Assembly: GCA_902826215.1 (NCBI GenBank)
Contig: CADEDY010000010.1
Coordinates: 49,035-113,034, forward strand
DNA length: 64,000 nt
Reading direction: 5' to 3'
DNA from: an uncultured Bacteroidota bacterium
GTDB taxonomy: Bacteria > Bacteroidota > Bacteroidia > Flavobacteriales_F > PHOS-HE28
This document shows positions 32,450 through 44,937 of this stretch, one piece after another (within the stretch, counting starts at the first letter, position 1; the number at the start of each line of letters is the position of its first letter). A program made the translations under genes and the position numbers. The notes beneath the pieces were generated by a model, which was not told the DNA's origin, did no database searches, and was given only the letters and a program-made list of their open reading frames with translations.

Positions 32450-33637
32450 TTACCGCTCCACCACCCTGAACTCAACTCTTCTGTTCTCCGCACGGTTCTC
32501 TTCGGTGGTGTTCGGCTTCAGTGGTTTGCTTTCGCCGTAGCCTTTCCAGGTGAGGCGTTCCTTCTCCACCTTCTTCTTCACGAGGTAGTCCACCACGGCC
32601 TTGGCGCGGTCGTCGCTCAGCTTCAGGTTGTAGGTGTCGCTGCCTTGGTCGTCGGTATGCCCTTCGATCTCTGCGCGGAGGAAGGGGTAGTCGGTCATCA
32701 CATCCACGAGCTTGTCCAGTTCCTTCTCATAGCCGGGCAGCAGGGTGGCCTTGTCGAAGTCGAACTGCACATTGTCCAGACGCACGCGGGTTCCCACTGC
32801 GGGCTCCACCTCGTGGATGTCGACGGTGGCGGTGCTTGCGTGGTCGGGTACCACTTTCTTCGGCGGGGGTGGCACGCTTTCCTTGGGCTGCGGCGTCAGG
32901 TTGGTTCCGGGAGGGGCGATGCGCACGTTCACATCGTCGATGAAGTAGTAGGCACCGCGTTCGCCGTCGGGTTGGCGCTCATGTTCGGTGACCTCATCGC
33001 CGTAGAAGTTGCCGATGAGCAGGTAGCGCTCTTCGCCGGTGGCATCGAATACGCCGCTCACCTTGTGCCAGCCGCCTTTCACCAGCTTTTCCTCGTTCAC
33101 CACGGGTGTGATGTACAAGGGCAGGCAATCGCGCGTGGCGATGGGCGCCGCTTGAAAAGCGATGCCGATGTTGTTGCTGGCCTCGTTGGATCGCGCGGCG
33201 CGTAGCACCCAGCATTCCGCGATGTAGCGTTTGCCAGCTTCCAGCGGAACGGGCAGTTCGCTCTGCACATACTCGTGCCAGTAGGTGGGTGTGTTGCCCT
33301 TGCCGTAGGTCTTGATGCCGGTCATGGCGCTGCCCGAATGCGTGCTCTGCTTGCCGCCGCTGTGCTTCGATGGATGCGCCCAACAGGCCGGGTCGTTGTT
33401 GGTGCTGAAGTGATCCGGCGTGGTCTGCGTGGGGCTACTCCAACCGGTCATGTTCGCGTTGAACTTGGCGGGATCCTGTGTCCAGCTGCAATAGGTGCGA
33501 ATGCTTTCCTCGAAGCCGGGGTTGGCCACCACATTCGGCATGGTGTCGCTCTGCAACGTGCGCTGGAGGATGTTCTGCGCAGATAGCAACGGAGCGCTGC
33601 CAAGCGCCACGCTGACGATGAAGATGGAACGGTACAT
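32450..33637 (-). CDS. OmpA-family outer-membrane lipoprotein-like anchor
   Basis: 395 residues: signal peptide (MYRSIFIVSVALGSAPLLSAQ), an N-terminal carbohydrate-binding-like jelly-roll domain (about 33-230; VVANPGFEESIRTYCSW, VPLEAGKRYIAECWV, YYFIDDVNVRIA), a Pro/Lys linker, and a C-terminal OmpA domain (about 285-395; VQFDFDKATLLP, IEGHTDDQGSDTYN, LKLSDDRAKAVVDYL, RRVEFRV) that binds peptidoglycan. It probably tethers the outer membrane to the cell wall while displaying the N-terminal domain. TAGCTTTG, a perfect -7 box, ends four bases before the ATG. Confidence 0.9.
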   Translation of the reverse strand: MYRSIFIVSVALGSAPLLSAQNILQRTLQSDTMPNVVANPGFEESIRTYCSWTQDPAKFNANMTGWSSPTQTTPDHFSTNNDPACWAHPSKHSGGKQSTHSGSAMTGIKTYGKGNTPTYWHEYVQSELPVPLEAGKRYIAECWVLRAARSNEASNNIGIAFQAAPIATRDCLPLYITPVVNEEKLVKGGWHKVSGVFDATGEERYLLIGNFYGDEVTEHERQPDGERGAYYFIDDVNVRIAPPGTNLTPQPKESVPPPPKKVVPDHASTATVDIHEVEPAVGTRVRLDNVQFDFDKATLLPGYEKELDKLVDVMTDYPFLRAEIEGHTDDQGSDTYNLKLSDDRAKAVVDYLVKKKVEKERLTWKGYGESKPLKPNTTEENRAENRRVEFRVVER

Positions 33638-33641
33638 GGAA

Positions 33642-33649
33642 CAAAGCTA
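33642..33649 (-). promoter_or_regulatory. -7 box four bases before the OmpA gene (TAGCTTTG)
   Basis: Perfect TAnnTTTG with a 4-nt gap to the ATG; no SD-like sequence can fit between them. The next in-frame Met lies after the signal peptide, so the ATG at 33637 is firm. Confidence 0.5.
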
Positions 33650-33723
33650 CCCGCAAGGGGAGGGGACATCGGCCATGGAAGGCGATGAGTTTGAACGGCA
33701 GGCTGTGGAACGTGGGGAATGCG

Positions 33724-33811
33724 TCCACAGATGAAGAGGATGAACTGCCTAACGGCAGTTGTGTGCAGAAGTGAGGCCGCCGTTAGGCAGTTCATCCTCT
33801 TCATCTGTGGA
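33724..33811. repeat. Perfect 33-bp inverted repeat in a divergent promoter region
   Basis: The bases at 33724-33756 and 33779-33811 are exact reverse complements over 33 bp, separated by 22 bp. A smaller palindrome, AACTGCC-TAAC-GGCAGTT, lies at the inner edge of the left arm. It lies between two divergent genes (OmpA and MATE), so it is not a conventional shared terminator. Read as RNA it would form a very stable hairpin. Confidence 0.9.
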
Positions 33812-33922
33812 TGAGTTCAGTTCGGATCTTCGGTGGATGCGCAGCGTTGACTTCCCTTCGCCAACTTGCGGCCCGAACAACGGCGGTGCGAACAATTGCG
33901 TCATCTGCTCTCGTTGGTAACC

Positions 33923-35311
33923 ATGCGCAAGATCTTCGCACTGATCAAGGAAAGCCTCGGCTCCGGCGAGGGCACCGACTACACCACCATCGGTGTGCGC
34001 CGGGCGATCGTGCTGTTGAGCATCCCCATGGTGCTGGAGATGGGCATGGAGGCGCTCTTCGCGCTGGTCGATATCTTCTTCGTGACCAAGCTCGGTGAAG
34101 TGGCCACGGCTACCGTAGGACTTACCGAGACGATGATGGTGCCCGTGTATTCCATCGCCTGGGGATTGGGCATGGGCGCCACGGCGGTGGTGGCGCGACG
34201 AACAGGGGAGAAGAACAAGGAAGGGGCGCGGGAATCCGCTGCGCAGAGCTTCCTGATCGCGTTGGTGATCGGACTGATCCTTGCGTTACCTGCGGTGATC
34301 TTCGCGCCACAATTGTTGGTCGCCATCGGTGCGGAACAGGAGGTGCAAGATGTGGCGTTGCCGTATGCTCGCCTCATGCTGGCGAGCAACCTCATCGTGA
34401 TGTTGCTCTTCGCGATCAATGCGGTGTTCCGTGGTGCGGGCAATGCGGGGATGGCCCTTCGCACACTGGCCTTGGCCAACGGTATCAACATCGTGCTGGA
34501 CCCCCTGTTGATCTTCGGCGTGGGCTTCTTTCCGGAACTGGGTGTGTTCGGTGCCGCGGTGGCGACGTGCACGGGACGGACCATCGGCGTGCTCTTCCAG
34601 CTCTATCATCTCTTCCGTGCAGATGGTCCGTTCGCTGTTCGGCTGAAGGATCTTGTGCCGGTCTGGAACATCCTTGCAGGCATCATCAAGGTCTCTCTCG
34701 GCGGCATCGGTCAGTTCATGATCGCCAGCATGAGCTGGGTATTTCTTGTGCGGGTAGTGGCGTCCTTCGGCACAGTGGCCGTGGCTGGGTACATGGTGGC
34801 GTTCCGCATCATCATCGTTACGCTGTTGCCGAGCTGGGGCATGGCGAACGCGGCTGCCACACTGGTCGGGCAGAACCTCGGTGCTGGTCAACCGGACCGT
34901 GCGCAGCGCAGTGCATGGCTGTGCGGGCATTACAACATGTTCTTCATGATGGCCGTGATGCTCTTCTTCTGGACCACCGCGCCGTGGATCGTTTCCTTCT
35001 TCGATCAAAGCGCCGAGGCCGATGCGATCGCGATCCAAGCGCTGCGCATCGTGAGCTTGGGCTATTTCTTCTACGGCTACGGCATGGTGCTCGCGCAAGC
35101 GCTCAACGGCGCGGGCGATAGCATCACCCCGATCTGGCTCAACGTGATCTGTTTCTGGATCGTGGAGATCCCACTGGCTTATTTCCTCGCCAAGACCTTC
35201 GGCTGGGGACCGCTCGGCGTGTTCGCTTCCATCGCGATCAGTGAAAGTCTCTTGGCCGTGCTCTGCGCGATCATCTTCCAGCGCGGCAAATGGAAGCTCG
35301 TGAAGGTGTGA
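33923..35311 (+). CDS. MATE-family efflux transporter
   Basis: 462 residues, about 12 membrane helices arranged as two homologous halves. The family pattern is clear: RAIVLLSIPMVLEMGMEAL in helix 1, ALVDIFFVTKLGEVATATVGLTE (in part) around helix 2, and GLGMGATAVVARRTGEKN after helix 3. MATE proteins export cationic drugs or metabolites using sodium or protons; the substrate is unknown. The ATG at 33923 is the natural start because the upstream frame has no membrane character. The gene lies 112 bp beyond the 33-bp inverted repeat. Confidence 0.9.
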   Translation: MRKIFALIKESLGSGEGTDYTTIGVRRAIVLLSIPMVLEMGMEALFALVDIFFVTKLGEVATATVGLTETMMVPVYSIAWGLGMGATAVVARRTGEKNKEGARESAAQSFLIALVIGLILALPAVIFAPQLLVAIGAEQEVQDVALPYARLMLASNLIVMLLFAINAVFRGAGNAGMALRTLALANGINIVLDPLLIFGVGFFPELGVFGAAVATCTGRTIGVLFQLYHLFRADGPFAVRLKDLVPVWNILAGIIKVSLGGIGQFMIASMSWVFLVRVVASFGTVAVAGYMVAFRIIIVTLLPSWGMANAAATLVGQNLGAGQPDRAQRSAWLCGHYNMFFMMAVMLFFWTTAPWIVSFFDQSAEADAIAIQALRIVSLGYFFYGYGMVLAQALNGAGDSITPIWLNVICFWIVEIPLAYFLAKTFGWGPLGVFASIAISESLLAVLCAIIFQRGKWKLVKV

Positions 35312-35320
35312 GGGGGATAA

Positions 35321-35447
35321 CCGCAGATTTCGCAGATGGGTTCGCCTACCGGCTCACCTTACATGGACGAGTGCGCACCGCCACGATAGGGTTAAGTCGA
35401 AAAAGCAAAAGGCCGCTGGTAAGCGGCCTCATCTGCGAAATCTGCGG
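35321..35447. repeat. 18-bp inverted repeat flanking a terminator
   Basis: CCGCAGATTTCGCAGATG (35321-35338) is repeated as its exact complement at 35430-35447. A half-matching CATCTGCGCCATCTGCGGA sequence occurs at about 44860-44878, suggesting an interspersed element. Confidence 0.75.
35398..35429 (-). terminator. Rho-independent terminator of the deiodinase-like gene
   Basis: Arms AGGCCGCT (35410-35417) and AGCGGCCT (35422-35429) with a GGTA loop; on the minus strand the stem is followed by TTTTGCTTTTT. It is the clearest intrinsic terminator in the window. Confidence 0.75.
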
Positions 35448-35520
35448 ATAAAAGATCTACGGATAGAACTCCCGCGGATAGAAATTGTCCGGATAGAAGG
35501 TCTGCGGATAGAACTACTGC
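35446..35520. repeat. 15-bp tandem array at the 3' end of the deiodinase-like gene
   Basis: Five units start at 35446, 35461, 35476, 35491 and 35506, each beginning GGATA(A/G)AA. The array overlaps the last two codons of the gene (stop at 35514-35516) and ends against the terminator region. Being a multiple of three it translates on the minus strand into degenerate pentapeptides. Confidence 0.85.
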
Positions 35521-44822: not shown

Positions 44823-44937
44823 TGCAGCGCCTTCCGATCGAACAGCAGCGGTATTCATCGGCGTCATCTGCGCCATCTGCGGAAAGAAGGACGACCCGAT
44901 CGCCCTGGCTTCGAAAAGCCGCCCCGCGCATGATCGT

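Follow-up and report, generated by a model that had tools for sequence, protein, structure and literature searches.

The long inverted repeat between the divergent ompA and MATE genes of this uncultured Bacteroidota bacterium is very probably a solo hairpin of a family of elements in which inverted arms, built from short word arrays, enclose a GxxExxY gene. It is called a gene-less derivative here, not a full element, because there is just a 22-nt spacer and no GxxExxY gene between its arms. We consider it likely that the hairpin reached this site by insertion and did not originate in place. The account that we favour on balance is that of a MITE- or REPIN-like gene-less copy of a GxxExxY element mobilised by its nuclease. 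The step in which the nuclease itself mobilised this hairpin is plausible, and we put it forward with more hesitation than the account as a whole. The hairpin probably has no dedicated host function.

The initial annotation described a perfect 33-bp inverted repeat with a 22-bp spacer between divergent OmpA and MATE genes, and this description is accurate. In the window, which is the whole 64-kb stretch of DNA that was analysed, the segments 33724-33756 and 33779-33811 each match the exact reverse complement of the other. Arms widened to 40 nt (33717-33756 and 33779-33818) are 93% complementary. The neighbouring genes are indeed divergent and carry the expected domains (Table 1). The promoter box reported 75 bp from the arm is found at that distance: it is TAGCTTTG on the minus strand at 33642-33649, which we take to be a Bacteroidota -7 box. 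Five inverted repeats in the window reach 16 nt or more (seed 12, within 300 nt), and this hairpin ranks first among them. Folded as DNA it reaches -46.9 kcal/mol (z -9.22) and folded as RNA -88.2 (z -9.15), and in each case none of 200 shuffles is as good.

Both arms contain the word CACAGAT and, 9 nt on, a degenerate second word. There is no third word, so the hairpin agrees only in part with the CRCNRMK arrays that typify GxxExxY arms (see below). An inner mini-palindrome, GCCTANCGGC, stands where other arms carry their third word (33747-33756 and 33779-33788; also L003, L005, L041 and L194). As an independent repeat this palindrome was rejected. Its count of 32 places is uninformative because the reversed-pattern control gives more (127).

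Table 1. Positions of the hairpin, its parts, its neighbours and related repeats in the window
Feature	Position	Strand	Details
Left arm	33717..33756	+	Exact 33 nt are 33724-33756; has a GAATRCG end
Left-arm first word, CACAGAT	33726-33732	+	
Left-arm second word, AGAGGAT	33735-33741	+	Degenerate
Left-arm inner mini-palindrome, GCCTAACGGC	33747-33756	+	
Spacer between arms	33757..33778	.	22 nt, no gene
Right arm	33779..33818	-	Mirror of left arm; exact part is 33779-33811
Right-arm word, CACAGAT	33803-33809	-	Second word at 33794-33800
OmpA-family gene	32450..33637	-	PF00691; host context
MATE-family gene (MatE)	33923..35311	+	PF01554; host context
Second hairpin of this kind, likewise without a gene	35318..35450	.	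36-nt arms, 83% complementary, 61-nt spacer (C10:84355, C10:84465)
Lone half-arm, same word class, CCGCAGATGGCGCAGAT	44866..44882	-	C10:93900-93916

A search of the genome with the arms, which the initial annotation had proposed, reveals dispersed copies. When the 4.16-Mb source genome is scanned with up to 3 mismatches in 26, the arm pattern matches two loci beyond the window (C3 and C6), and the reversed-pattern control matches none. At C6 the pair of arms makes another hairpin without a gene, 123 bp long. The C3 arms are 43 nt long and 84% matching and lie 450 nt apart with a GxxExxY gene between them, for a full element of 536 bp. The product of this gene scores 137.6 bits with TIGR04256 and 131.7 bits with PF13366. 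A local match of 43 nt at 91% (E 1.9e-9) joins the ompA-MATE hairpin to C3, and the two belong to a subgroup with CACAGAT and a degenerate second word. The left arm of the hairpin recurs in L003/L007 and L005, and a very similar arm, TCCACAGATGAAGAAGATGACACAGATGAATGC, is present on both sides of L065. Partial arm copies are found at C15, where an arm of a second style follows, and at C32, where the copy sits within another hairpin of like style. GxxExxY is the one gene seen between arms among the five source-genome loci with the ompA-MATE arm.

Gene-less hairpins of like style occur in the source genome at C6, C8, C9, C10:84355 and C32, and C3:276443 is probably a further example. The C10:84355 copy is the second hairpin of Table 1; it is located downstream of the MATE gene and has CGCAGAT twice per arm, 9 nt apart. 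Single or tandem arms are present at C15 and C10:93900. The pattern CCRCAGATNNCRCAGAT has 16 matches in the source genome, at least one of which (C30) resembles coding sequence by chance, and its reversed-pattern control has none.

Classical bacterial MITEs are short, non-coding sequences with terminal inverted repeats and dispersed copies. A MITE was among the three candidates first proposed for this site, together with a large operator and a transcribed small RNA, and it comes closest. The ompA-MATE hairpin has terminal inverted repeats and dispersed arms, a relative is hairpin-free at the same site, and a coding relative exists. However, this coding relative has a GxxExxY nuclease and not a transposase, and the target-site duplication that would mark a MITE did not emerge: reading the three complete subfamily copies, whose exact ends are undefined, makes none visible. 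It is quite unlikely that the hairpin is a classical MITE. In that reading a DDE or serine/tyrosine transposase would move it as a non-autonomous insertion sequence derivative, and GxxExxY would be a mere passenger between the same terminal repeats. Intergenic locations and the filled and empty sites described below would suit such an origin as well as the repeats and dispersed copies do. Against it are the lack of a visible duplication, the arm word, which tracks the GxxExxY protein tree, and the finding of GxxExxY as the one gene between arms among the five source-genome loci. No parent transposase emerged from a check of arm sites that covered the Y1 family.

Insertion of the hairpin, which we favour over an origin in place, can be judged from sites that are filled in some genomes and empty in others. 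Only the source genome's own spacer contains the arm among 16 ompA-MATE spacers with both flanks in one locus. The other 15 are at best 4-6 bases off the 17-nt word pair, and the site of the best-matching relative (L011, G034) is hairpin-free. At least four of these spacers carry unrelated repeat arrays, of GAGTGGC type in L013, L017 and L034 and of another repeat in L036. Because other species hold such arrays there, the spacer appears to have been hit repeatedly.

These comparisons leave the proposed large operator unsupported, since the arm is present in only one of the 16 spacers. A local regulatory device for ompA and MATE, whether operator, invertible switch or terminator, would make sense of the location between divergent genes. 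It is nevertheless very improbable given the 15 spacers that have no hairpin, the use of the same arms at unrelated loci and the want of a terminator-like site on the hairpin. The sole intrinsic terminator candidate in 33500-34000, with loops of 3-8 only, is at 33955-33971, off the hairpin.

Two other sites in the genus display a wider range of states. At the TatD-asparaginase junction, for which 45 genomes were searched and 30 loci recovered, 29 loci are anchored on both sides. Three of these are filled (G007, G008 and G009) and 26 are empty. The filled sites exceed the length of the commonest empty form by 134 nt, and in that empty form the stop and start codons overlap as read. The hairpin in G008 spans 124 bp, and no target duplication is visible at this junction. 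The Lgt-radical SAM site was compared in 10 genomes. A gene-bearing element is present there in G008, G009 and G033, and the source genome has an internally deleted intermediate that has lost much of the gene and retained its arms. An arm remnant is left in G007, and the hairpin in G064 belongs to a different word class. No hairpin is present in G060, G061, G020 and G015. In L246 and L289, from this same site, the GxxExxY element has its right arm and the spacer downstream of it repeated in tandem as one cassette, and this cassette is repeated most in G008 and G033. The G023 elements L186 and L215 gave no clean empty site because a G026 relative of the former matches one flank together with parts of the arms and a degenerate fragment of the gene, and the right flank of the latter has no match in relatives.

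Many of the dispersed arms occur singly or in tandem and do not form hairpins. For example, G008 has one GxxExxY gene, and ten other stretches read in this genome carry its arm words as four inverted pairs (L240, L241, L244 and L245) and six single or tandem arms in one orientation. Genomes with a matching gene have a weak excess of arm copies (p 0.046 and 0.051, with part of the candidates scored per genome), and by the same count some arm-rich genomes have no matching gene.

The linkage of inverted arms to GxxExxY genes extends well beyond the source genome. Of the 45 genus genomes, 40 contain PF13366. At 32 genus GxxExxY loci, the best inverted match between 350-bp flanks averages 26.8, compared with 12.5 (sd 2.0, max 21) in 108 displaced control windows drawn from GxxExxY and four-helix-bundle loci. 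Twenty-nine of the 32 loci are above the 95% control level and 22 are above the best of the controls. Displaced windows replaced a cross-locus arm control, with 3 of the 32 loci above its 99% level, as the main control. The cross-locus control was set aside because arms of different loci have words in common. Over 72 genus loci, with the partial copy L009 outside the scored set, the mean flank match is 25.6, with 65 loci above 16.5 and 50 above 21.

A scan of named genomes kept 80 loci out of 528 relatives; 78 could be scored and two were too close to contig ends. These loci average 26.9 against 12.3 (max 19.5) for 137 control windows, and 71 of the 78 exceed the 95% control level (64 exceed the best control). 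Judged by their record titles, those above the 95% level belong to 15 phylum-level groups, among them Bacteroidota, Chloroflexota, Verrucomicrobiota, Planctomycetota, Pseudomonadota, Acidobacteriota and Armatimonadota. They sample the CACAGAT-type clade because the scan was seeded with that clade. Three of eight matches in a plasmid collection were scored: the Bacteroides finegoldii locus has clear CACAGAG-type arms (score 24), that of Prevotella nigrescens has arms of a different kind (score 21) and that of Treponema has a short match only (score 12). In the B. finegoldii case (L334), the GxxExxY gene and its CACAGAG-type arms lie between radA and a gene for a FAD-dependent protein, and Bacteroides is a genus amenable to genetic work in the laboratory.

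GxxExxY arms are short arrays, usually three, of the 7-nt word CRCNRMK, mostly with 8-10 nt spacing. Outside the CACAGAT subgroup, most begin ATCC, AACC or CACC. Word triples are present in both arms at 109 of 149 GxxExxY loci and in 5 of 195 control windows when each arm is scored on its own, as it was for all tail and spacing counts. By the same criterion the remaining 40 loci have no triple on one or both sides. Word and spacing are usually matched between arms: the two share a word tail at 106 of the 109 loci (shuffled mean 55.7, max 68) and a spacing at 92 (shuffled mean 25.8, max 42). These joint counts hold seven duplicates, loci that are in both the genus and named-genome sets (L101, L102, L110, L123, L125, L175 and L180). 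In the genus only, the tail is the same at 44 of 46 loci (shuffled mean 11.4, max 21) and the spacing at 39 (10.1, max 20).

The class of word follows the GxxExxY protein tree. Mapped on 67 rows, word class requires 7 changes (shuffled mean 35.8, min 30), and exact 7-mers require 25 (shuffled mean 51.9, min 48). Five of the 72 genus loci have no assignable arm word (L046, L198, L203, L219 and L220). For eight others the word was assigned manually (L044, L058, L063, L065, L066, L068, L069 and L183), and L007 was retained despite a low automatic score. A Mantel test on the 64 GxxExxY loci with arm scores of at least 17 gives r 0.51, a value reached in none of 2000 permutations, and its reverse-complement control gives r 0.11. 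Such co-divergence alone is no proof of recognition because the arms are linked to the gene and share its inheritance. Linkage could thus give part of the correlation between word and protein. The matched change of word in both arms, some 400-500 bp apart, would be harder to explain by linkage alone.

The gene of the C3 element encodes a GxxExxY protein of roughly 124 amino acids. The GxxExxY protein is predicted to adopt a PD-(D/E)XK nuclease fold (AF2 pLDDT 97.4, pTM 0.87). Its best structural match, and the sole Foldseek match at E ≤0.001, is 4ic1 (SSO0001; E 8.9e-4), which we take to be a Cas4 protein. This match has a VIA Z of 9.6 and an rmsd of 3.4 over 95 aligned residues, and it is followed by many nucleases near Z 6-7.7. 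An alignment of 76 proteins, which left out four of 80 with in-frame stops, has E21, D61, E71 and K73 invariant and Q85 and Y89 nearly so. These six residues presumably form the active site, and a QxxxY motif belongs to RecB-like nucleases. GxxExxY and 23S_rRNA_IVP-type four-helix-bundle proteins are small and sporadic, and to our knowledge no role has been assigned to them except in rRNA and DGR contexts. In one report, a gene called GxxExxY by one pipeline is called cas4 by another tool (PMC8934634), in line with the fold match to 4ic1.

Pairing in the ompA-MATE hairpin is so regular that a passive history deserves attention. Its arms pair at 33 of 33 bases and have common letters that are missing from the C3 and C6 arms. 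This perfect match may reflect recent formation or the correction of one arm by the other in replication. Gene and arms might then have been inherited jointly, with solo hairpins left as relics of internal deletion, pairing restored by template-switch correction and nothing moving today. The internally deleted copy at the Lgt-radical SAM site fits such a history, and strain-level movement is not among the observations. We consider it rather unlikely even so, since arm copies reside at many unrelated sites in one genome, different arm classes occupy the same intergenic sites and the catalytic residues are invariant in 76 proteins. These three observations suggest activity, at least formerly.

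The hairpin might instead act as RNA. If transcribed, it could function or spread as double-stranded RNA, like the intervening sequences of 23S rRNA that contain a four-helix-bundle gene. The very strong RNA fold, the location of the TatD-asparaginase copy between adjacent same-strand genes and the like-style arms of 23S_rRNA_IVP genes in the same genus are all compatible with this. PF05635 genes, which encode these four-helix-bundle proteins, are present in 44 of the 45 genus genomes. Their loci have inverted arms of 7-nt units: 23 of 30 exceed the 95% control level, and 12 of 30 exceed the control maximum. Similarity of arm and protein is more weakly correlated than for GxxExxY (r 0.25, 23 of the 30 loci, 3 of 2000 permutations). 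The 30 loci (L071-L100) display inverted unit arrays such as GGGTAGT, TGATTGC and GCGTGTT.

What argues against action as RNA is the pattern of word conservation. Agreement at variable word positions is nearly alike for partner and non-partner words, the two values being 0.845 and 0.816 at position 2 and 0.821 and 0.764 at position 4, with a small partner excess that is in the direction of pairing. Because partners and non-partners agree nearly equally, the word rather than base pairing seems to be conserved, and base pairing was rejected as the conserved property. No Rfam family reaches its gathering score either, and an RNA-level element is distinctly unlikely. The small RNA suggested at the outset was likewise set aside, as was a known RNA family: five Rfam matches with E up to 1 were obtained in 33500-34000, four of them microRNA precursors, and all are far below gathering scores.

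For the nuclease-mobilised element that we favour, the sequences suggest the following mode of spread. The nuclease would recognise the word arrays and cut there. DNA bounded by arms, either with the gene or as a bare hairpin acted on in trans, would then be copied or moved to new intergenic sites, where it would insert without a fixed target duplication. Internal deletion would give rise to gene-less hairpins like that between ompA and MATE. This mode would resemble that of REPINs and employ a different enzyme. Movement is deduced here from comparisons between genomes and not from observed events.

More speculatively, these elements could constitute a class of mobile element that is widespread in bacteria and so far undescribed. 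In this class a lone Cas4/RecB-like PD-(D/E)XK nuclease, working without a transposase or recombinase, would read a co-evolving triple-word array at each end. It would spread its own gene as well as swarms of hairpins that have none, and do so without fixed target duplication. A second, convergent class would consist of four-helix-bundle genes with arms of 7-nt units. Among the papers listed by literature searches outside subscription journals and preprints, we found no link of the GxxExxY family to arms and no description of a nuclease gene between word-array arms. Word-array arms tied to each protein family give these proteins a testable role and explain one class of hairpin repeats between genes. 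Should the nuclease move the arms, bacteria would have a mobile-element mechanism based on enzymes of a class that seldom acts alone, and hairpins of REPIN type would have arisen several times in evolution. Because word and spacing change together in both arms, this mirrored word code is a natural data set for protein-DNA reading.

Several known systems share features with these elements. Intervening sequences of 23S rRNA bear inverted repeats. Those with a four-helix-bundle ORF (PF05635) are described within some 23S rRNA genes (PMC10053308). They are alike in having a small protein gene inside inverted repeats and genus relatives with 7-nt-unit arms, and they differ from GxxExxY elements in protein family and word period. 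Small palindromic repeats known as CGTC-tagged REPs, some in Bacteroidetes, are reported to lack a dedicated transposase (PMC3733652). A relation is possible because CGTC adjoins the first word, just outside it, in 4 of 6 subfamily arms (positions 33721-33724 of the window and the L003 and L005 arms). CGTC-tagged REPs are set apart by their short stem-loops, which leave the tag unpaired at one of the ends, whereas the arms of the ompA-MATE family are long word arrays.

The closest resemblance of form is to REPIN/RAYT systems. REPINs are intergenic hairpins made from inverted doublets of a short repeat that are dispersed in the genome, with a specific transposase gene nearby (Bertels and Rainey 2011, PMC3116915). 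Membership of the REP/RAYT family itself was rejected on the basis of the single Y1_Tnp gene found in the source genome (C1:328199), which has no arm words within 1.5 kb except for a lone CGCAGATG near the edge of the locus. A GACCCCGCTGGGGTCG-type repeat near this gene (L317, G000:C1:328199) is possibly a REP family of its own. The ompA-MATE family shares with REPINs its inverted doublets and dispersed hairpins, and the likeness is confined to form. Its partner is a PD-(D/E)XK nuclease instead of a tyrosine transposase, and the arms are arrays of a 7-nt word.
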